Below are positions 799 to 12,500 of a stretch of 64,000 nucleotides of DNA, in pieces. A model generated the notes under the pieces. That model was not told the DNA's origin and made no database searches. It saw only the letters and a list, made by a program, of their open reading frames with translations. Origin of the DNA: Actinomycetota bacterium. GTDB taxonomy: Bacteria; Actinomycetota; Acidimicrobiia; Acidimicrobiales; Iamiaceae. The stretch spans positions 124,001-188,000 of the forward strand of contig JACPNX010000023.1 of NCBI GenBank assembly GCA_016185275.1, given 5' to 3'. Both the position numbers and the translations under genes were made by a program. How positions within the stretch are numbered: position 1 is the stretch's first letter; each line of letters opens with the position of its first letter.

Positions 799-1464
799 TC
801 AGGCTGCAGGCTCGTCGCCGGCGGGCAACGATCGAACGCTCCCGGCTGAGACCTTCGCCGCCGTCAGCTGCGCAACGGCCTGCCTCACGGAGCTCCCGAG
901 CGCACGTGCGACCTTGGTCTCGAGCTGCGGCAGACGGGTGAGCACGACCTCGGCCCGCTTGTTGCTCTTGACGAAAGCGTTCACGAGCGTGTCCCCGATC
1001 GGGCGGACGTAGAAGTCCATGATCAGGTCTTCATCGTCCGTCAGGAACCTGCCGCGGACCAGTTTCGTGTTCCCGTTGTCATCGGTGCGAGCGACCTTGG
1101 CCTCGCAGAGCACCAAGCCGAGCGTCTCGGCGAGGGTCTGCCCGGTGGTCGTAGGGGCGGTTGCGACTGATCCCCAGACCTTCGTCTTGAGGAAATGGTG
1201 CGCCTCGTCCTCCACGCCCGCCTGTTCGATGACGTCGTCGGCGAACACACCCGGGAGCAACTCCTCGGCCGCGACGGCCTTCTGGTTGAGCTCCTCGCGG
1301 TTGCTGACGACGTGGTGATGGGACATCACGGCGAACGCCGCCTGACCCATCTTCTTGTAGTCCCGCTCCGGTTCGCCGCTACGGCTCTCGCACATGTAGC
1401 CGGCGATCTCAAAAGCAGCATCCACCTGGGCATCGGCCTCAGGGGACAGGGCTGAGTAAGCCAT
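799..1464 (-). CDS. Hypothetical protein of the accessory island
   Basis: This encodes 221 residues starting MAYSALSPEADAQ. It is mixed alpha/beta-looking and charged, with no signal peptide, membrane segment or motif that I recognise. A GAG-containing ribosome-binding stretch precedes the ATG. It lies 107 bases after the HicB stop and 14 bases before the HTH-like gene, all on the minus strand, so it may be the third gene of a hicA-hicB-led transcript. No function is proposed. Confidence 0.6.
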   Translation of the reverse strand: MAYSALSPEADAQVDAAFEIAGYMCESRSGEPERDYKKMGQAAFAVMSHHHVVSNREELNQKAVAAEELLPGVFADDVIEQAGVEDEAHHFLKTKVWGSVATAPTTTGQTLAETLGLVLCEAKVARTDDNGNTKLVRGRFLTDDEDLIMDFYVRPIGDTLVNAFVKSNKRAEVVLTRLPQLETKVARALGSSVRQAVAQLTAAKVSAGSVRSLPAGDEPAA

Positions 1465-1571: not shown

Positions 1572-2675
1572 CTAGACCTCGACCGAGGATGGCTCCTCGA
1601 CCGGCTCATGGTCTTCGTCCTCGACCTTCGACGCATCCTCGATTTCCTCGGCGCGAAGTGGCGGCCAGTTGGCGTTGCTGTTCGCGAAAGAGACGAGCTG
1701 CTCGATCTCTTCGCGAAATCGTGGGCCGAGGAGATACAAGCGCCGAACCTGACGGAGCCACGCCGATCGGTCTGTGCGAGAGGCGTAGGCGCACCACCGT
1801 CGCAGCGCGGCGATGACATCAGCGAGTCCGGAGTTCACGACCTCGTCGTTGCTCTCGGCGAGCCCGAGCTGCAGCCGGGACCATCCGAGGAACAGACGGG
1901 CGTAGTCATCGACATCTGCGACGGGGTCGAGATGTTCGACGGCCTCCTCATAGCGGCCCTGGTGGTGGAGCAACTGACCCAGGGAGGACCGCGACCGGAT
2001 GTTCGTGTAGTCGCGCCGCAGGCTCTGGCGCCACAGGGTCTCAGCGAGCCGTACCTTGCGTTCGCGGCGAGCGAGGGCGCCGGCGGTTCCGAACTCCTTC
2101 GCTGATTCTTGTGCGCCGCCTGCGCCTCCCGCGATTCGTTCGGCGGCGAAGCTGTACACAAGGCACGCGAGGTTCGTATCTCCGCGGTTCCGAAGGAAGG
2201 TTGCGATCCCCTTCAACGCGCCGATCGAGTCCGCCTCACCTCCGATGGCATCCGCCGTGACGTCCTCGTAGGCGTCCGTCGTCGTCGTTGTGTTCGTCTG
2301 GGCCGGTCCCTCCACGGCCTCGGCGAGGATCGTGGTGACGAGCTGGTTGAGAGAGCAGCCCTCGCTGTCAGCGCGAGTCGCGAGGCGCCGATGGAGCGAC
2401 TTGGGCACGCGGACTGAGAACCTGCCCGAGTATTCCTCGGGCTCGACCTCGCCGTGCGGCTGCGGGATCTCCAGTCCCGACTCGACGGCAGCCGACAGCC
2501 ACGACTGCAGAGCGCCTTCCAGATTCGCGAGCGCCTCGTCCAAGGTCGCGCCCTCGGCGAAGCAGCCCCGAAGTTCGGGCACGCTCGCCGCGATGACTCC
2601 TTCGTCCGGGACGAGGACGCGCGACCAGGGGCGCTGTGCCAGCTGCTCAGCCTTGTCGCTGTTCGTTTGAACCAT
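1572..2675 (-). CDS. hicB: HicB-type antitoxin fused to a TPR-like C-terminal region
   Basis: The first 70 residues form a HicB-like partial RNase H fold, with a segment resembling the family's typical VPELPGCFAEG-like strand (here VPELRGCFAEGATLDEAL). Residues about 80-125 form an Arc/MetJ-like ribbon-helix-helix (RFSVRVPKSLHRRLATRA...SLNQLV) that should bind DNA. HicB proteins usually stop near 110-150 residues. This one continues for about 220 more, with helical repeats that look like TPRs (for example LLHHQGRYEEAVEHLDPV near residue 240) and an acidic tail. The start chosen is the ATG at 2675 behind a GAGGAGG; a TTG at 2684 is possible. It overlaps the 3' end of hicA. Expected role: neutralise HicA and autorepress. 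The role of the tail is unknown. Confidence 0.8.
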   Translation of the reverse strand: MVQTNSDKAEQLAQRPWSRVLVPDEGVIAASVPELRGCFAEGATLDEALANLEGALQSWLSAAVESGLEIPQPHGEVEPEEYSGRFSVRVPKSLHRRLATRADSEGCSLNQLVTTILAEAVEGPAQTNTTTTTDAYEDVTADAIGGEADSIGALKGIATFLRNRGDTNLACLVYSFAAERIAGGAGGAQESAKEFGTAGALARRERKVRLAETLWRQSLRRDYTNIRSRSSLGQLLHHQGRYEEAVEHLDPVADVDDYARLFLGWSRLQLGLAESNDEVVNSGLADVIAALRRWCAYASRTDRSAWLRQVRRLYLLGPRFREEIEQLVSFANSNANWPPLRAEEIEDASKVEDEDHEPVEEPSSVEV

Positions 2676-2937
2676 CGCGTTCAAAAACCTCCTCGAGGGC
2701 AGTCAGCATGCCGGTGGCGGTCTTCAGTCCAAGAACCTTGTTGCCAGTCGGGATGGTCACCGGCGGCGCACCTTTGCGGACCGCGGCCCAATGCGAACCC
2801 TTCCCTCGCTTCTTGTCGATCTCGTATCCCAGAGCGGTACACACCGCCGCGACCGCCTCTGGGGTGGCGGACCGGCGCTTCAGTCGGAAGTCGGCGAGGG
2901 CCCGCTGAGCCTTCGCACGGTCGTACGAGGAAGCCAC
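2647..2937 (-). CDS. hicA: HicA-type mRNA interferase toxin
   Basis: This encodes 96 residues starting at a GTG preceded by AAGGAGA. The hallmark is KRGKGSHWAAV around residues 43-53, containing the Gly-Ser-His of the HicA double-stranded-RNA-binding-like fold. His is the catalytic residue in characterised HicA ribonucleases. A following VTIPTGNKVLGLKTATGML segment matches the second half of the family. It is somewhat longer than typical HicA (about 60-80 residues) because of an N-terminal extension (about 40 residues precede the motif). The gene overlaps hicB, consistent with translational coupling. Confidence 0.8.
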   Translation of the reverse strand: MASSYDRAKAQRALADFRLKRRSATPEAVAAVCTALGYEIDKKRGKGSHWAAVRKGAPPVTIPTGNKVLGLKTATGMLTALEEVFERDGSNEQRQG

Positions 2938-2963
2938 GCTAGCTTCTCCTTAGTCCTGTGTGA

Positions 2964-2977
2964 CACTATATATGGTG
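2964..2977. promoter_or_regulatory. AT-rich near-palindrome, candidate hicAB operator and -10 region
   Basis: CACTATATATGGTG is an almost perfect palindrome (one mismatched pair) in an otherwise GC-rich region, 27-40 bases upstream of the hicA GTG. It contains TATATA, suitable as a -10 element on the minus strand. Autoregulation by the ribbon-helix-helix of HicB is known for the family. Binding here is inferred. Confidence 0.45.
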
Positions 2978-3078
2978 CTAGTTGATGTCCTCATCCTGGC
3001 ATGGCACCGTGTTCGGTGTCAACTGCGACCGATGCTCCGCCCGTGGGCCGGACGTTGACCGACCTGTTCGAGCCGCAG

Positions 3079-4870
3079 TTAGAGGTCCAACGAGCGCAGC
3101 CGAGCCTCTGCATCCGGCGCCATAGCCACGACTGCGTCGCGCTCGGCGCGGAGCCGAGCAAGGAGGAGTGTGCTCTCGGCCTGGTGTGTGAGACTCGGTC
3201 GTCGAATCCGGTCGTCGACGGCGGGCTCGTCGACGTCGAAGATCCACCCCTGGCGCCGATCGGTCGACCATTCGATGGTGAGGTCTTCGACGGCCTGGTC
3301 GAGGTCGTCAGCGGCGACGTAGACGTGGCTGGTCTCGCGGGCACGGCTCATGGCGACGTAGGTGAGCTCTCGGCCGCCGCCGTCGGCGAAGACGTGTGCG
3401 CGGTCGACGGTCGCTCCGTGCATGCGATGGACCGTGACGGCGTAGGCGTGGTCGAGACGGTCCTGCCGAGCTGCTCGCCGATGAGGCTCTCCTGGCGGCC
3501 GTCGTCGAACCGGACGGTCAACTGCTCGTCGCCGACAGCGGTGACGGTGCCGCGTTCGCTCGTCACGAACCGGCCGTCGCCTGACGGCGCGAGCGTCACG
3601 ACCCGATCGCCGACCGCGTAGCGCTTGCCTCCAGACTCGATCTCGGGGCCGGTGATCGCGCCGGCTCGGATGCGGCGCTGGCGGGCTCGTTCGTTGAGGG
3701 CGGCCACGTCACGCCGTCGCCACGCCAGCAGGACGGTCTCGTGGCCGGCCCGTAGGTCGGCTTCCCACGCGGCGATGGCGACGTCGAGCGCATCATCACG
3801 GGTCGGCGCGGTGCGAAGCCGCTCGTTGTCGCGGTACCACTCGATGGCGTCGGTGACCTTGCCGTTGCGCAGCCGCTCGAGGGCGCCACGCTCGGCGGGT
3901 TCGTGCTGGCGGATGTTCTCGTCGAGGACGTGGACCGCGGGCCCGTGCCGGTTGATGGGGCTTCGAGCCCACCGCCCGCTTCGACGGCGTCCAGCTGGCG
4001 GTGGTCGCCGACGATGACGGCCTTGGCGCCGGCGACGTCGACGGCGGCGAGCAGTTGGAGCATGGCCTGGTCGTCGGCCATGCCGGCTTCGTCGATCAGG
4101 AGCGCGAGCCGCCGGTGCTCGAGCCGCCAGACGAGCGACGCGATGGTGCGGCTGTCAACGCCGGCTTCGTCGTGGAGGGTGCGCGCTGCTTGGCCGCTGA
4201 TGGCGGTGCCGGGGACGCGGTAGCCGTTGCCTTCGTAGCCGGCGCGCAGGACGTCGAGGGCGGTGGTCTTGCCGGAGCCGGCGACGCCGACGGTGAGGTC
4301 GAGACCTCGACCAGAGGCGAAGACGTGAGCGATTGCGTGCCGTTGGCTGTCCGTGAGTGACCGCCCGATGGCTCGCTGCTTGTCGGCGATGGCGAGGCCC
4401 GTAGCGAGCCGACCAACCTCGACACTGCTCTCGCGCCCCACCAGACGCTCGGCTACCGCCTCGACGGCGTGCTCGGTAGCGAGCACCGAGGCTGCGGCCC
4501 ACGCCCTACCACGGGGCGTCGGGCTGGCCGACGAGCCGCACGCACTCCCGGTGCTGCACGATGCCGGCGACGACCCGGTCGAGTTCGTCGGCCATGCAGC
4601 CGTAGAGCGCAGGAGCGACGACACGGATCACGTCGGCGCGGGTGAACGCCTTGCGCTTCGCCAGCGGGCCGTTCGGGCCGACCGTCTCGTAGACAAGCTG
4701 CTCGCGCTCGCGGTCGGTGAGGGTGCGCAGCGGTCGATGGTGGTGCTTCGTTGACGAGGTTGAGACGTTGGGCGCAGCTTGCGCGCCGGCCAGTCGGTGG
4801 CGACCAGCTCCTCGAGCCAGCGGCCGATCAGCGCCTCGGGCGTCTCGTCCTTCTTCGCCTCCCGTCTGTG
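3079..4870 (-). pseudogene. Decayed MobF/TraA-type relaxase-helicase (helicase part)
   Basis: Pieces of one protein lie in successive, different minus-strand frames. Near 4770-4870 there is an EALIGRWLEELVATDWPARKL piece. At 4506-4757 there is a stretch rich in TDREREQLVYETVGPNGPL. At 3970-4500 lie a Walker A (GVAGSGKTTALDVL) and a Walker B (LLIDEAGMAD) followed by VGDHRQL. At 3460-3970 an intact-looking helicase segment ends in a beta-rich region. At 3079-3440 lies the UvrD-C-like TVHRMHGATVDRAHV and VAMSRARE motif. At least four frame changes (near 4760, 4506, 3970, 3450) separate conserved pieces, so no full protein can be made. Such proteins nick and unwind DNA for conjugation. The N-terminal relaxase domain is not seen. 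Confidence 0.75.
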
Positions 4871-4985
4871 CAGGCGTGACGGAAGCGGTGGATCGTCGCC
4901 AGCTCGTGGGCGCGACCGGTGCAGCACAGCTCGTCGAACATGCCGCCGCGGCCGACGGCATGGAGCTGCCGAGGGTCGCCGACGT
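4862..4985 (-). pseudogene. Second relaxase-helicase fragment
   Basis: One minus-strand frame reads VGDPRQLHAVGRGGMFDEL followed by an AHELATIHRFRHA stretch. This is the region just after Walker B in TraA-like helicases. The equivalent region (VGDHRQLDAVEAGGGLEA) is already present near 3990, so this fragment is not simply the missing upstream part of that pseudogene. It comes either from a second helicase gene or from a rearrangement. It abuts the oppositely oriented integrase stub. Confidence 0.55.
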
Positions 4986-4994
4986 GGCCGGCAC

Positions 4995-5205
4995 CATGGA
5001 AACGGTGACCGGAGCGAGCACGAAGGAGCTGATGCATCGGCTCGGCCACGCGAGCCCGCGAGCTACGCCGCGCTACCAGCACGCAACGGCAAGGCGCGAC
5101 GAAGCGATCGCCGACGGCATCGACCGAATCCTCGAAGCCGCACAGCACGACGGTGAGACCGGCAGCAACGTGCTTCGGTTCCGAAGTAGCGCGGGCGACG
5201 GCTGA
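4995..5205 (+). pseudogene. C-terminal stub of a tyrosine recombinase (integrase)
   Basis: About 69 residues read GASTKELMHRLGHASPRAT and then RYQHAT. This is the LGH box and the nucleophilic Tyr at the very end of phage- or ICE-type integrases. The catalytic Arg, Lys and His-x-x-Arg boxes that should precede it are absent: upstream sequence switches to a helicase fragment on the other strand. It can therefore no longer recombine DNA. The stub ends 7 bases before the zeta-like gene and lies about 1.25 kb from tRNA-Ala, a usual integration target. Confidence 0.75.
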
Positions 5206-5211
5206 GCCGTC

Positions 5212-5790
5212 TCAGGCCAGGGCGCGCAGCTCCTTCGGTGTCCACCGTGGCCCGGCCGGCTTCGACACGGCGACCCCGCGATGGAACGACGCCACGACCC
5301 GGAACGGCTCGGACGCCGACGAGTTGTCGTAAAGGGTCGCCTCGTCGACGAGTTCGATCGCCTTCGCCACGAGTGACCACAGACGCGCATACCGGGACCG
5401 CACCTTCTCCTCGGGTACGTCGTGGCCGTCGTTCTCGACCCGGTTGCGCACGCGCGCCACGGCCAGGTCCTCGGGGACGAGTACCACGTGCAGGATCACG
5501 AGGTAGCCCGCTTCGGCTGCTGCCTTGACGAGGTCGACCTTCGAGTCGTGCGAGAAGACCGTCTCCGTAACGAACGACGTCCCCGCCGCGAGCAGCTCGT
5601 CACGGCGCTCGGCTGCCAGGCGGGAAGCGTCGTAGGCGTGGGCGGCAGCATCGTCGGGCCACTCGCTCGCGGCGATGACATCGGCGTTGACGAACTCGAG
5701 CTTGGTGACCGGTCCGATCACCCGGTCGTACAGCGTCGACTTCCCGGCACCGTTGGGGCCGGCGATGAGGTGGAGAACCGGGTCCGCCAT
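5212..5790 (-). CDS. Zeta-toxin-like P-loop kinase
   Basis: This encodes 192 residues starting MADPVLHLIAGPNGAGKST. The Walker A motif GPNGAGKST is followed by FVNADVIA and then TETVFSHDSKVDLV, the layout of zeta/AAA_33 proteins. These phosphorylate small substrates; UDP-N-acetylglucosamine is the target for characterised zeta toxins. The start is set by the TGATG overlap with the upstream ParD-like gene, which implies translational coupling. A longer frame upstream is the shadow of that gene. Toxicity is inferred from family and neighbour; some AAA_33 proteins are not toxins. Confidence 0.75.
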   Translation of the reverse strand: MADPVLHLIAGPNGAGKSTLYDRVIGPVTKLEFVNADVIAASEWPDDAAAHAYDASRLAAERRDELLAAGTSFVTETVFSHDSKVDLVKAAAEAGYLVILHVVLVPEDLAVARVRNRVENDGHDVPEEKVRSRYARLWSLVAKAIELVDEATLYDNSSASEPFRVVASFHRGVAVSKPAGPRWTPKELRALA

Positions 5791-6254
5791 CAGCCGGCGG
5801 CGCGCACCTTCGACTTCCCGGTCTTTGCCGTGGCACCGCTGGCCGGCCTCTTGGCTACCGCTGGCTTCGTCGCAGCCGGCTTCTTCGCTGCTCGTGACTC
5901 CGCTGGCCCGCTGCGTTCGACGATGCGGCCCCTCTCGTCGAGCTCGACCCAGGTGCGGCCTGCGCGGGCGAAGTCCTCGGCGAGGTCGAGCTCGGCCCGG
6001 GCTTCGTCCATGCGCGCCGACCACTCGGCCCGCACGACCGCCTGTTCCTTCGGATCGAGGCTGTCGTAGGAGCGGCTGCCGGCGAGGACCGCGGCGATCT
6101 CCTTGTGCGAGATGCTGGACGACGCCTCGATCTCCCGACCGATGCGCGCCCAGTGCGCAACCTGTTGAGACGCGCTACGGCTCTGCACGCTGCCGGCAAG
6201 CTTCGCCGAGGCGTACAGCTCGTCGTCGATCCGGGCCGGAGAGGTCGTCGCCAT
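5790..6254 (-). CDS. ParD-like antitoxin
   Basis: This encodes 154 residues. The N-terminal 45 (ARIDDELYASAKLAGSVQ, then SRSASQQVAHWARIGREIE) match the ParD-like ribbon-helix-helix antitoxin family that pairs with zeta-like kinases. The middle is acidic-helical, and the last 35 residues are a Lys/Ala/Pro-rich basic tail reminiscent of nucleic-acid-binding tails. The ATG at 6254 lies 7 bases beyond a likely -10 element, so the mRNA may be nearly leaderless. It overlaps the toxin gene by one base. It should neutralise the kinase and repress the operon. Confidence 0.75.
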   Translation of the reverse strand: MATTSPARIDDELYASAKLAGSVQSRSASQQVAHWARIGREIEASSSISHKEIAAVLAGSRSYDSLDPKEQAVVRAEWSARMDEARAELDLAEDFARAGRTWVELDERGRIVERSGPAESRAAKKPAATKPAVAKRPASGATAKTGKSKVRAAG

Positions 6255-6260
6255 GGCTCG

Positions 6261-6290
6261 ACTGTAGCAATCTGCAACAGTGCTGAACAA
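6261..6290 (-). promoter_or_regulatory. Promoter and operator palindrome of the ParD-like/zeta operon
   Basis: Reading the minus strand, TTGTTC (6290-6285) and TACAGT (6266-6261) are spaced by 18 bases, a good sigma-70-type pair, with the ATG only 7 bases further on. ACTGTaGCA-atc-TGCaACAGT at 6261-6281 is an inverted repeat with 9-base arms matching at 8 positions. It overlaps the -10, as expected for an autorepressor site. Confidence 0.5.
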
Positions 6291-6366
6291 TGCGGGCCCC
6301 GGCCTCAACACGCACCCATCACATCGACGGGGCGTGGTGCTCGGTGCTCAGCCGTGCTGATCTCAG

Positions 6367-6451: not shown

Positions 6452-6528
6452 TGGTGGAGACGATGGGACTCGAACCCACGACCCCCTGCTTGCAAAGCAG
6501 GTGCTCTAGCCAGCTGAGCTACGTCCCC
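6452..6528 (-). tRNA. tRNA-Ala (anticodon TGC)
   Basis: The minus strand gives acceptor GGGGACG pairing with CGTCTCC (one G-T pair), D-arm AGCTCAGCTGGCTAGAGC, anticodon loop CTTTGCAAG with TGC, and T-arm GGGTTCGAGTCCC. The discriminator is A and CCA is encoded. It marks the edge of the accessory island and is a plausible former attachment site. Confidence 0.95.
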
Positions 6529-6723: not shown

Positions 6724-9525
6724 TTGAACCCGACCCGGGCGGCGGTCTGGAACGGCACCTGGCGCTTGGCCGCGGCCGGAGGGCCGCTCATCGAGGCCAG
6801 CGCGCCCTCGATGCCCTCGATGCCCTCGATGCCAGCGATGCCAGCGCTGGCCGGGCGCTCGGGTGACGCCCCTGAGCTGACCGAGACGGCCTTCGATCTC
6901 ACCCCCCTGCCGCCGGGGATCCACGCCACCGTGGCGGTGCTCCTCGGCGACGCGGGACCCGGCTTCGAGGCCACGTTGCGGATCCGCGACTCCCGGGATG
7001 AGCGCTGCGAGCTCAACGTCCGCTGGGAGGCCGCGGGCCCGGTCGTGACGGTCCGGGGTGCGGCAGACCCCCCGCCCTCCGACGATCCACGCCAGCCCGA
7101 CGGCCGAGCCCGCCGGCTCTCGACCGGGCCGGGCCTGTGGTTGCTCGATGGGTCGGGTCGCACCTCGTGGATCAACGAGCGTCTCGTGGAGCTGAGCGGG
7201 CGGCCGTTCGAGGACCTGCGTGAGCGGTCGCCGCTCGACCTGGTCGCACCCGAGGACCGCTGGCGCGTCGCCGAGCTCTTCACCGACGCGTCCCGGCCGA
7301 ACGAGGTCGGCGACGTGCGCCTCCGCCGGCCCGACGGCGTCGAGCGCTGGGTCATCGTCGCCACCACGCCGGTCGTCGACGACGACGGTGGCAACGACGG
7401 CACCTTCGTGGTCGTCACCGACGTGACGGACCGGCGCGCCCGCGAGCAGGCGCTGGCCGACGCCGAGGAGCGGTTCCGCCGGTCGTTCGCGGAGGCGTCA
7501 GGAGGGACGGCGCTCGTCTCGCCCGATGGTGGCACCCTGGAGGTGAACCGCGCCCTCAGCCGGCTTCTCGGCGAGCCGCCGGCCGAGCTCACCGGTCGGC
7601 CCTTCACCGACCTCCTGCACCCCGACGACCGCGCCGAGGAGCAGCACCTCCTGGCCAACGCGCTGGCCAGCGGCATCGAGGGCTACACCGTCGAGCGCCG
7701 GCTGGTCGGCCGGGACGGGCTGCCCATGTGGGCCGACCTCACCGCGTCGGTCGTGCGATCGGTCGGTGGCGACGTCCTCCACATCGTGTACCAGCTCGAC
7801 GACGTGACGGCCCGCCGGGCCACCGACGCCCTCACCCGTGAGGCCGTCGCGCGCTACCAGGCCGCCTTCGCCCACGCCCCTTGCGGCCTGGCCGTGCTCG
7901 ACCCCGACGGCACGATCTGCGAGGCCAACCAGTCGCTGTGCCGCCTCGTCGGTCTCGAACAGGGCCTGGTCCGCAACCAGCGACTCGGCGACCTCGTCGA
8001 CGACGACGACCGTTCGGTGCTGGAGTCGCACCTGGCCGACGTGGCCGGCGGGCGGACCTCCATGGCGCGCGTCGACGTCCGGCTGTGCGCGGCACCGGAA
8101 GCGCCCGCATGGGCCGCCGTCACGATCACCGCGATCGCCGGCGAGGACGGCCGCGCCGTGAACCTCGTCGCCCAGATCGAGGACATCACCGAGCAGCGCG
8201 CCGCCGAGCACGACCTCGTCCACCAGACCCTGCACGACCCGCTCACCGGGCTCGGTAACCGGCTGCTGCTGCGCGAGCGCCTGCAACACGCCATCGCCCG
8301 CAGCGGGCCGCGCGGCTTCGCCGTGATGTACCTCGACCTCGACCGCTTCAAGTCGGTCAACGACGCCCACGGCCACGACGTGGGCGACGGGCTGCTGGTG
8401 GCGGTGGCCGGCCGGCTCCGGCGCGCCGTCCGCACGGGCGACACCGTCACGCGCCTCGGAGGCGACGAGTTCGCCATCGTGGCACCGGGCGTGACCGACG
8501 AGGCCGCGGCCCTCGCGCTCGCCGAGAAGATGCGGGCCGCGCTCGCCGAGCCGTTCCGCGTCGGCGAGACGGACCTCGGCATCACCGCCAGCATCGGAGT
8601 GGTCCTCGCCGGCCCCGAGGTGGCGAGCGGCGACCAGCTCCTCCACGACGCCGACGTCGCCATGTACCGCGCCAAGGACGCCGGCCGCGACCGCTCGGAG
8701 GTCTTCGACGACGCGCTCCGGCTCGAGGAGATCACCCGGCACGAGACCGAGCGGACGCTGCGCGCCGCGCTCGACGACGAAGGCCTGCGCCTGCACTACC
8801 AACCGCTCGTCGACCTGCACACCGGCCGGGCCATCGGTGCCGAGGCCCTGCTGCGCGTCCTCGACCCGCAGCAGGGGCTGCTGCCGCCATCGCGCTTCCT
8901 CGGCATCGCGGAGGACACTCGCCTCATCGTCGAGGTGGGCGCCTGGGTGCTCGACGAGGCCTGCGCGCAGCTGGCCCGCTGGGACGTCGCCGGCTTCGGC
9001 CGGCTCGTGGTGGCGGTGAACGTCTCGGCCGCGGAGCTGAGCGCCACCGGCTTCGCCGACAAGGTGCGGGGCGCGCTCGAACGCCACCACGTCGACCCCC
9101 GCCGGCTGCGGCTCGAGCTCGGCGAGCACAGCGTCCTCATGGCCCCGGCCGACACGGTCGAGGAGCTGCAGGCGCTGGCCGAGACGGGCGTGTCCATCGG
9201 CCTCGACGACTTCGGCACCGGGTCGTCCTCGCTGGCGCTGCTGCGCGACGTGCCCGTGCGATTCGTGAAGATCGATCCGTCGTTCGTGCGCCGCATCGAG
9301 CAGCCGACAGGGGCCGCTCTGGTCGAGGCCATCGTCGCCCTCGCCCGCTCCACCGGGCTCCAGGTGGTGGCCGAGGGAGTCGAGACCGCCCGCCAGCTCG
9401 AGCTCCTCGCGCAGATGGGATGCGACGCCGCGCAGGGCCACCTCTTCGCGCCGGCGTCCCCTCCCGACGCGATACCTCGTGGCCTGGGGGTCGGTCGCCC
9501 GCCGGCGGGCGAGGTCGGTCCGTGA
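6724..9525 (+). CDS. PAS-PAS-PAS-GGDEF-EAL cyclic-di-GMP protein
   Basis: This encodes 933 residues, apparently cytoplasmic. It starts at a TTG behind a strong AGGAGG at 6710-6715. After a low-complexity N-terminus come three PAS-like domains (about 130-240, 250-365, 375-490). Then follows a diguanylate cyclase domain with intact GGDEF at 579-583 and an RTGD inhibitory-site motif five residues before it. An EAL phosphodiesterase domain has EAL at 707-709, DDFGTGSSSL, KIDPSFV and VVAEGVET. The usual ELTE-type Thr is Gly (LELGEH). Both catalytic halves may work, and the dominant activity cannot be read from sequence. It overlaps the next c-di-GMP gene by 4 bases (GTGA). Confidence 0.9.
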   Translation: MNPTRAAVWNGTWRLAAAGGPLIEASAPSMPSMPSMPAMPALAGRSGDAPELTETAFDLTPLPPGIHATVAVLLGDAGPGFEATLRIRDSRDERCELNVRWEAAGPVVTVRGAADPPPSDDPRQPDGRARRLSTGPGLWLLDGSGRTSWINERLVELSGRPFEDLRERSPLDLVAPEDRWRVAELFTDASRPNEVGDVRLRRPDGVERWVIVATTPVVDDDGGNDGTFVVVTDVTDRRAREQALADAEERFRRSFAEASGGTALVSPDGGTLEVNRALSRLLGEPPAELTGRPFTDLLHPDDRAEEQHLLANALASGIEGYTVERRLVGRDGLPMWADLTASVVRSVGGDVLHIVYQLDDVTARRATDALTREAVARYQAAFAHAPCGLAVLDPDGTICEANQSLCRLVGLEQGLVRNQRLGDLVDDDDRSVLESHLADVAGGRTSMARVDVRLCAAPEAPAWAAVTITAIAGEDGRAVNLVAQIEDITEQRAAEHDLVHQTLHDPLTGLGNRLLLRERLQHAIARSGPRGFAVMYLDLDRFKSVNDAHGHDVGDGLLVAVAGRLRRAVRTGDTVTRLGGDEFAIVAPGVTDEAAALALAEKMRAALAEPFRVGETDLGITASIGVVLAGPEVASGDQLLHDADVAMYRAKDAGRDRSEVFDDALRLEEITRHETERTLRAALDDEGLRLHYQPLVDLHTGRAIGAEALLRVLDPQQGLLPPSRFLGIAEDTRLIVEVGAWVLDEACAQLARWDVAGFGRLVVAVNVSAAELSATGFADKVRGALERHHVDPRRLRLELGEHSVLMAPADTVEELQALAETGVSIGLDDFGTGSSSLALLRDVPVRFVKIDPSFVRRIEQPTGAALVEAIVALARSTGLQVVAEGVETARQLELLAQMGCDAAQGHLFAPASPPDAIPRGLGVGRPPAGEVGP
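6802..6846 (+). repeat. Nine-base tandem repeat inside the PAS-GGDEF-EAL gene
   Basis: Five near-identical 9-base units (ATGCCCTCG or ATGCCAGCG, the first unit GCGCCCTCG) encode a Ser/Ala-Met-Pro ladder near residues 27-41. It is a slippage-prone tract close to the start; gain or loss of units would stay in frame. Confidence 0.8.
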
Positions 9526-12500
9526 CGGCCGGGCGTGAGCAGGCCCACGGCCGGCGTCGACTGGCCGCGGCTGGAGGATCGGCCAGCCTGAGATCGACGG
9601 CGGCACCACCACCGCGGCGGGCCCCGCGGTCGCGCTCGGCGGGACGGACCCAACGAGCCGATGGGACCGAAGGGGCCGCCTGGTCCCGGCACACCTGGGT
9701 GGCGTGCCTCGTCGTCGGGACGGCGGCAACGGCGATTGCAGCCGTCCTCGGGCCCGCGTCCTGGATGGTGGCCGCCCAAGCAGCCGGTTGGCTGGCGGTG
9801 CTCGCCGGGTACCGCGCGGCCCGCGTCGACCCTGCCGCAGCGCACCGGCCATGGATCAGCTTCGTCGGCGCGCTGGCACTCACGCTGCTCGCCGGCCTGC
9901 TGCACGCTGTCCTCGACCGGCTCGGCAGCCCTCTCGCGCGCTTCCCGGGGCCGGCGGAGGTGCTCTACGCCGCCGGTTACGCCCTCTTGCTGCGCGGCCT
10001 CGCCCGCCTGCGCCACCTGAGAGCCGGCGCCTCCGACGTCGACGGGCTGCTCGACGGGCTGCTCGCCGCGACCGCGGTCGGCTACCTGATCTGGGCGTTC
10101 GTGCTCGCCCCCTACGCCACCGACGCCACCGTCCCCCTCAGCGACCGGCTCACCAACGTCGCCTTCTCGACAATGGCTCTGCTCGTCCTCGCCGTCGCGG
10201 TGCGGGTCGCGGTGGGCCCAGGCGTGCGCAGCGTGCCCTACTGGCTCCTCATGTCGGCGGTCGTCGCGTTCATCGCCACCGACCTCGCCTCGACCGTGTC
10301 GATCAAGGTCGGCGGCGTGGACGCGGCCATGCTGGTGGCTCCCACGGTGTTCGCATTGTGGGGGGCGGCGCTCACCCATCCCGATCGCTGGCTGTTGACC
10401 GAGCCGCCCACCGGACCGAGCGGTGTGCTGCGCCCGGGCCGCATCGTGGCCTTCAGCGGCGCCCTGCTGCTCGTCCCGGTCGTCGTCCTCGTGCAGCACG
10501 CCGCCGGCCACCGCCATCGGCTGGTCGAGGCCGGTGTCGCCTCGGTGCTGCTGTCGGCGCTCGTGGTCGCCCGGCTGGCCCGGATCGTCGGCGCCAGCGC
10601 CCTCCACGCTCGCCACGAGCGGGCGCTCCGGCGCACCTCGGCGCGGCTCGTCGCGTCGACGTCGCGCGCCGACATGACCGCCACCGTGCTGCAAGCCGTC
10701 CACGCGCTGGCACCGAGCGTCCAGGACCTGCGGGTCAGCGCGATGACCGTGGCGCGCGACGGGACGCTCACCGTCGAGGACTCCGTCGGGCTGCATGCCG
10801 CGGCGTCGGTCGGCACGACCATGGCGGCCACCGCGCTTCCCCAACCGCTCAAGCGGGCCCTGGTCGAGCGCACCCCGGCCGCACTGCCCGCGTGCCCCGC
10901 CGTCGACCTTCCCCCCGGACCGGACCCTCGTCCCCGGGCGCTGCTGCTGGTACCGCTCGTCACGCAGGGGGCGCTGCGCGGCGCTCTCGTCGTGTCGAGC
11001 CGGGCGCCTCTGGCGGAAGAGGTCCACCAGAGCATCGAGTCGCTCGCCGCGGTGCTGTCGCTCGCACTCGAGAGCGCGACGCTGACCGAGGCCATCCACC
11101 GCACCCGCAACGAGCGCCGCTTCCGCCTGCTCGTCGAGCACGCCTCCGACCTCGTGCTCGTGCTGAGCGACCGCGGCGAGATCACCTTCGCCTCGCCGGC
11201 GAGCCACCGCCTGCTCGGTCTGCGGCCGGAGGAGCTGCTCGCCACCACGCCGCTCGAGCGCATCCACGCCGACGATCGCCCGTTGGCGGAGGCCGTGCTC
11301 GTGAAGCGCCGCGGCGAAGGCGACGTCCACGGCCCCCTCGAGCTGCGCATCCAGCACCGGGACGGATCGTGGCGCTGGTTCGAGGTGCTGGCGCGGGACG
11401 TCGGTCCCAGCGAGGACCTCCACGGCTCGATCGTGAACTGCCGGGACATCAGCGACCGCAAGGAGGCCGAGCTCGAGGTCGTCCGCTCCGAGGCCCGGTT
11501 CCGGGCGCTCGTGCAGAACGTCGGCGACGTGGTGGCCGTGCTCGACGACCGCGGCCGCTTCACCTACGTCAGCCCGGCCGTCACCGCCATGCTCGGCTTC
11601 CGGCCCGAGGAGCTCCTCGGGGTGCCCGTCACGCATCTCCTGCCGGCCGACCACCCGCGGCCGGGCATGCGCGCCAGCTCGGACCCCTTCGGGCTCGGGC
11701 GGCCAGCGGGGCTGCTCCCAGCCGGCAACATCGAGGTGCGGGTGCGGGCGGCCAGCGGTGAGTGGCGGACGCTCGACGTGATGGCCACCGACCTGCGCAC
11801 GGATCCCGCGGTGCACGGCGTCGTCCTCAACGTGCGGGACGTGACCCTGCGCCGCGAGCTCGAGCAGACCCTGCACCACCAGTCGCGCCACGACTCGCTC
11901 ACCGGCCTCGCCAACCGGCACCGCTTCGCCGAGCTCGTCGACGAGGCACTGGCCGGCCTCGCCGAGGAGGGCGCCGCACCGGCCGAGACCGGGGTGCTGT
12001 TCGTCGACCTCGACGACTTCAAGACCGTCAACGACAGCCTCGGACACGCGGTGGGCGACTCGCTGGTGCTGGCCGTCGCGGAGCGGCTGGCCGGGCTGCT
12101 CCCCCCGGAGTGCGCAGCGGCCCGCCTGGGCGGAGACGAGTTCGCCGTCCTGGCCGCCGCGGCGCCGGGCGACGAGCTCGGCCCGTTCGGCCTCGCCCTG
12201 CGCCTGCTGGACGAGCTGCGCCGGCCGTTCCCGATCGACGGCCACGAGATCTTTCTGACGGCGAGCATCGGCCTGGCCGCCCTGCACGATCCTGCGGCCA
12301 CCGCCGAGGTCGTGCTGCGCAACGCCGACACCGCGCTGCACCTGGCCAAGGAGCGGGGCAAGGACCGGGTCGAGCTCTTCGAGGAGCGCATGCACGCGAC
12401 CGCCTTCGAGCGCCTCGAGCTGCGGACCCACCTGTCCCGGGCGGTGGACGCCGGCCAGCTCCGCCTGCGCTACCAGCCGGTCGTGGACCTGGCCAGCGGT

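Follow-up and report, generated by a model that had tools for sequence, protein, structure and literature searches.

Why should a HicB antitoxin, a protein that usually ends after its DNA-binding domain, continue for a further 242 residues? The question is raised by a gene pair on the reverse strand of the window, by which we mean the whole 64-kb stretch of DNA that was analysed. Judged by its sequence, the locus appears to be a HicAB type II toxin-antitoxin system, real but rare, in which an RHH-type HicB variant carries a TPR tail; with its promoter and two operator boxes counted in, the feature reaches about position 3022 (Table 1).

A HicAB pair with an extended antitoxin

The GKGSH motif that the preliminary description had picked out in HicA does occupy residues 45-49, and as G[KR]GSH it is invariant across the three intact loci, so that the conserved catalytic His of G-x-G-S-H (His49 here) is present. 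In Pfam, the family that all three intact copies match is HicA (best E 0.0057); the window protein scores 14.2 bits against a PF07927 cut-off of 27, which is a threshold of detection and no biological property, and a Pfam HicA search of the window's own genome missed the gene because it is divergent. It bears, in addition, a conserved extra N-terminal helix at residues 7-19 (YDRAxAxRALxDFR). The fold predicted for the protein is alpha-alpha-beta3-alpha (mean pLDDT 80) and contains the dsRBD-like alpha-beta-beta-beta-alpha arrangement of HicA. When this model was compared with the PDB by Foldseek, the top two matches were the HicA chains 5yrz_B (TMt 0.82, probability 1.00) and 6g26_F (TMt 0.75, probability 0.99), at 1.6-2.1 A and with E values of only 0.09-0.12, and HicA was alone among PDB folds in matching with high probability. 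Sequence motif and predicted fold thus both identify the window toxin as a divergent HicA, and family knowledge makes it a probable mRNA-cleaving toxin.

The HicB core and the RHH domain likewise turned out as described, both exceeding the curated Pfam cut-offs. The UPF0150 core is matched by PF21748 (residues 22-71, 8e-9, 35.7 bits against a cut-off of 27.3) and by PF15919 (7e-8, 33.1 bits against 27), and it also matches TTHA0281 (2dsy) at 6e-6; the RHH is matched by PF05534 (residues 81-117, 1e-11, 45 bits against 21). By these measures both domains appear ordinary, and from what is known of the family HicB would be expected to neutralise HicA.

It is beyond the RHH that the protein departs from the ordinary, with about 23 residues of linker, about 190 of solenoid and 27 of acidic end, 12 of which are D or E. 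TPR models match residues ~200-256 of HicB (TPR_12, 2e-6 to 5e-6); the TPR score of the window protein, 28.2 bits, falls just under the cut-off of 30.1, and the best relative matches TPR_19 at 1e-8. A profile of four tail sequences searched against the PDB found consensus or designed TPR proteins (best 1.6e-14), and AlphaFold2, given the four sequences, predicted ten helices over residues 149-333 (pLDDT about 65-95) that form five hairpins in a solenoid of antiparallel helix pairs. The best Foldseek matches of this tail model were all TPR structures, such as 1na0 (TMt 0.79 at 2.9 A), with a best E of only 1.4e-3 and no specific relative. The earlier recognition of a TPR-like extension with an acidic tail therefore stands, and no SEL1 model occurred among the Pfam matches, so that its suggestion of the SEL1 family must be dropped. 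The HicB core has a pLDDT under 50 in the AlphaFold2 model (the alignment is shallow), and the seating of the tail on the RHH and core is unseen in it.

Table 1. Features of the hicA-hicB locus in the window and of two incomplete relatives in other genomes.
Feature	Position	Strand	Description
hicA toxin gene	2647..2937	(-)	96 aa, GTG start, conserved in three loci
hicB-TPR gene	1572..2675	(-)	367 aa, ATG at 2675, stop 1572-1574
HicB core (partial RNase H-like, UPF0150)	2454..2612	(-)	residues 22-74
RHH DNA-binding domain of HicB	2313..2435	(-)	residues 81-121
Variable linker of HicB	2232..2300	(-)	residues 126-148, omega 0.6-0.9
TPR-type alpha-solenoid tail (predicted)	1656..2231	(-)	residues 149-340, five helical hairpins, omega 0.07
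Acidic C-terminal end of HicB	1575..1655	(-)	residues 341-367, poorly conserved
Candidate operator box 1, in promoter	3004..3022	(-)	TTGACACCGAACACGGTGC; -35 TTGACA 3017-3022, -10-like CAGGAT 2993-2998
Candidate operator box 2, promoter-hicA interval	2961..2979	(-)	AGCACCATATATAGTGTCA, second CAC-N8-GTG
HicA-like piece, L041 (genome G1004)	831-977		
HicB-RHH-like piece, L041	951-1139		
Tail-like piece, L041	1270-1593		
Tail-only ORF, L040 (genome G884)	8048-8818		near-consensus TTGACA-17-TATGAT, hic-type promoter/operator in front

Where does such a pair belong among the known systems? Gerdes 2024 lists 14 HicA contexts, none of them with a HicB-RHH-TPR protein (PMC10865869), and a literature search that fell short of most subscription journals found no HicB/TPR fusion. 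With Class 4 of that scheme the window locus shares the order hicA-hicB, overlapping genes, a partial RNase H-like core followed by an RHH, palindromic (here candidate) promoter operators and a HicA fold with GKGSH; it differs in that the RHH, C-terminal in Class 4 HicB, is followed by 242 residues with a TPR solenoid, and in that HicA carries an additional helix at its N-terminus and lies under the Pfam cut-off (PMC10865869). Classes 7 and 8 also have long HicBs (216-233 or 331-356 aa), and the Class 8 HicA is of ~95 aa, but their order is hicBA and they have no recognisable DNA-binding domain; moreover, the HicB fold of Class 8 is C-terminal, behind unrelated domains, whereas here it comes first in the protein and what is added is TPR (PMC10865869). 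On sequence grounds, then, we would place HicB-RHH-TPR as an RHH-type HicAB variant outside the Gerdes 2024 classes.

Conservation, mobility and decay of the tail

A search of 23 relatives within the family found no other copies of hicB-TPR. The order-wide search returned a full-length homologue in a genome of another family (G308; residues 5-356, 69% identity, no stops), and GTDB contigs yielded this copy (JAJYNS010000047.1; locus L003/L031) together with a second (JAKACA010000058.1; L034), both in MAGs of Actinomycetes; it was alignment with the tail that gave the two loci, the whole-protein scan having given none. The full-length copy carried by G1065, in the same family as G308, probably comes from the same genome as L034. 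There are thus intact hicA/hicB-TPR pairs in two genera of another family, at 67-69% identity, with hicA directly upstream and the 29-nt overlap of the window genes kept exactly at L003 and L034, as a single-gene fusion rather than a frame error would predict. The block that L031 and L034 have in common (1.6 kb, 87%) runs from the promoter to ~125 nt past hicB, and outside it the two contigs are unrelated. These limits indicate that hicA-hicB-TPR moves as one unit, the tail travelling with HicAB.

The HicBs of 148 genomes of the order bear out the premise that such proteins normally end after the DNA-binding domain: the other stop-to-stop frames measure 102-230 aa against 376 aa for the window HicB, the only one above 230 aa, and the HicB of locus L011 terminates directly behind its RHH, exactly where the tail starts in the window protein. 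Its open frame had made L011 a candidate long HicB, as it had L009, which has no tail. Two further candidates matched by the tail profile, a thioredoxin with TPR (L038) and a TPR protein (L039), were set aside as generic TPR proteins and not relatives. Searches of phage, plasmid and viral-contig records gave HicB cores only, or nothing, and HicB-TPR is rare, only a few copies having turned up in ~1,500 genome searches whose first-look step is of limited sensitivity.

Of the protein segments compared, the tail has changed least. Between the window and L003, dN is 0.153 for the tail (residues 149-340), 0.306 for the HicB core region (1-125) and 0.263 for HicA, and omega is 0.071, 0.214 and 0.229, respectively, against near 0.9 for the linker and near 0.5 for the acidic end, all omega values being approximate because synonymous sites are near saturation. 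Identity is 78% in the tail versus 64% in residues 20-123 (Fisher p = 0.013), and the last 27 residues vary freely. From these comparisons the tail appears to be under strong purifying selection and to be better conserved than either the antitoxin core or the toxin. Within it, helices A1, A3 and A4, whose counterparts in TPR folds face the groove, show 87-94% invariance among the intact copies, and B1, B3 and B4 64-69%; a conserved groove is only suggested, however, because A2/B2 and A5/B5 run the opposite way.

Two incomplete relatives bear on the history of the architecture. Genome G1004, from outside the window's class, has HicA-like, HicB-RHH-like and tail-like pieces in that order with broken frames, which by sequence is an old, decayed copy of the same arrangement. 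Genome G884 has an open tail frame of about 50-55% identity directly behind TTGACACCGTATATGGTGCTCGCTATGAT, and HicB models found no match in this genome. The first in-frame candidate starts past its -10 are TTG/GTG at 8138-8153, where no ribosome site is clearly recognisable, and no in-frame ATG follows the -10 until well inside the tail. Because of this start region and the hic promoter/operator in front, the frame is most likely an operon relic left after hicA and the HicB core were deleted, although a tail without hicA or HicB could also mean that it has a use of its own. An independent tail protein, which would have counted against the fusion, is thus found in name only: G884 apart, ~1,500 genome searches and the phage and plasmid records yielded no tail gene standing on its own.

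Upstream of hicA, TTGACAC-N8-GTGC embeds the -35 box in a palindrome, and a second CAC-N8-GTG sits close to where transcription is expected to begin. The first box, the one within the promoter, is present at each of the four comparable loci and is unique in the 64-kb window, where the two boxes are also the sole CAC-N8-GTG pair within 60 nt; the two-box arrangement is found at L031 and L034 as well. Since RHH HicBs are known to repress their own operons from palindromes (PMC10865869), and palindromes stand here in the promoter, HicB likely autorepresses the operon at these predicted operators.

The surroundings of the intact copies differ. The hicA-hicB-TPR unit of L031 is flanked by tRNA-Ser on one side and chromosomal genes on the other; that of L034 has an integrase-like gene next to it and is followed by a GmrSD_N-HNH gene; and that of the window belongs to an island which also holds a broken TraA-type helicase, a ParD/zeta pair, tRNA-Ala and a type II methyltransferase. 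The survey that had been proposed for the fusion and its conserved neighbours recovered the fusion intact at L003/L031 and L034 and no neighbour gene common to all hicA-hicB-TPR loci, which makes it likely that the role of the tail is tied to HicAB itself. The loci also revealed no partner gene or small-peptide gene.

Possible roles of the tail

What, then, could the tail do? The reading that we favour, with slightly better than even confidence, is that of a HicAB operon in which the TPR domain, by binding a partner (protein or peptide), governs when HicB holds HicA and when it lets go. The HicB core would bind HicA, and an RHH oligomer would repress the operon at the two promoter palindromes; a HicB of this kind would have acquired the five-hairpin TPR domain, which would bind its protein or peptide partner; and binding would alter the stability or oligomerisation of HicB, or its grip on HicA or DNA. 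It is the nature of TPR domains, and this only, that suggests the partner and its effect on HicA. The earlier idea of the tail as a sensor that would free HicA is plausible and compatible with everything seen. What makes type II antitoxins let go of their toxins has long been asked, and since the tail evolves more slowly than the core or the toxin, its ligand should be findable and could be a natural trigger of HicA.

TPR domains frequently self-associate, and the main rival to partner binding, possible although we think it unlikely, is that the tail is structural, dimerising or stabilising HicB or the HicA-HicB-DNA complex and sensing nothing. Conservation together with HicAB in unrelated neighbourhoods is what an internal function predicts, and the core and RHH are ordinary; yet ordinary HicBs, including the others of the order, function without a tail, and the location of the best-conserved helices along the groove fits ligand binding at least equally well.

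Could partner binding take the more specific form of a repressor, antitoxin and receptor in one protein, whose groove recognises a foreign or stress-made protein or peptide (a phage protein, for example) and whose binding frees HicA? We regard this as rather doubtful, but if true it would make this a HicAB triggered by infection or by a peptide, comparable to CapRel but with HicA as its toxin, and with the build of an RRNPP receptor. A role in phage defence has been suggested for HicA domains and, for one of them, recently validated (PMC10865869, PMC13092281). With CapRel-type systems the likeness is an antitoxin module that doubles as infection sensor, although in CapRel toxin and antitoxin are fused in a single protein and the toxin is unrelated (PMC10865869). 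RRNPP receptors likewise join a DNA-binding domain to a C-terminal TPR sensor (PMC7376267, PMC7425212, PMC7430634), and here the likeness is one of logic only: the window protein has an RHH and not an HTH, it has a toxin-binding core, no conserved small peptide gene lies downstream, and no specific RRNPP match was among the fold matches listed for the tail.

An improbable alternative to partner sensing is that the tail makes HicB dependent on a chaperone or protease, HicB needing a host factor on its tail to remain stable, as in the TAC systems, which include a HicAB type. C-terminal HicB extensions that confer SecB dependence are known (PMC5105189), and they share with the tail both position and logic, namely an antitoxin extension that could couple the antitoxin to a partner. 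The ChADs described are, however, short (about 30-47 residues) and variable (PMC5105189), whereas the tail is large, folded and the best-conserved part of the protein, and no SecB-like gene was found among the neighbours in the window, L031 or L034.

Still less probable is a tail with its own function that merely shares a gene with HicB, HicAB then serving as an addiction module that keeps the tail in the genome. That the tail is better conserved than its carrier, and that G884 keeps it open without HicA or HicB core, would agree with this, but the G884 frame has the look of a deletion relic, behind a hic promoter/operator and lacking a good start, and free-standing genes were absent from the other genomes searched and from phage and plasmid records. 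Finally, that the extension is a read-through fusion of neutral or accidental origin, or an artefact of assembly or frame, which the window protein alone would be insufficient to exclude, is scarcely credible, since full-length intact homologues with a tail under purifying selection (omega 0.07-0.1) exclude chance and rule out a frame error or chimera, and the decayed G1004 locus retains the order HicA-HicB-tail.

Genes around the intact loci

Restriction genes are found near two of the three intact copies. At L034 the GmrSD_N-HNH gene (8723-10027; restriction of a type IV-like kind, padloc NsnA 5e-25) has a start that overlaps the stop codon of hicB-TPR, and L031 retains only about the first 125 nt of such a gene (9220-9346); given this remnant, the operon may once have held three genes, with GmrSD_N-HNH as the third. 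Just outside the window (L032 16803-19475; contig 120803-123475) are genes for a 64-aa RHH protein (PF05534), an M.Eco57I-type methyltransferase and a 244-aa partner, possibly the restriction enzyme of the methyltransferase, and these possibly form a type II restriction-modification set that includes an RHH regulator.

Downstream of hicB in the window are two genes on the same strand (799-1464 and 2-784) that have no confident Pfam match, the second matching DUF6192 at 4e-4, below the cut-off; both are absent from the other hic loci. Upstream of hicA, a TraA/RecD-type relaxase-helicase with broken frames (3079-5021, reverse strand; AAA_30 7e-38) is either left over from a conjugative element or reflects frame errors. 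Another toxin-antitoxin pair, 3 kb from hicA-hicB, consists of a ParD-like antitoxin and a zeta-toxin-like kinase (5212-6311) and adjoins tRNA-Ala (6452-6528), and at L034 a TacA1-type antitoxin and GNAT toxin (TacAT; 10924-11804) are encoded 2 kb from the hicAB-TPR unit.
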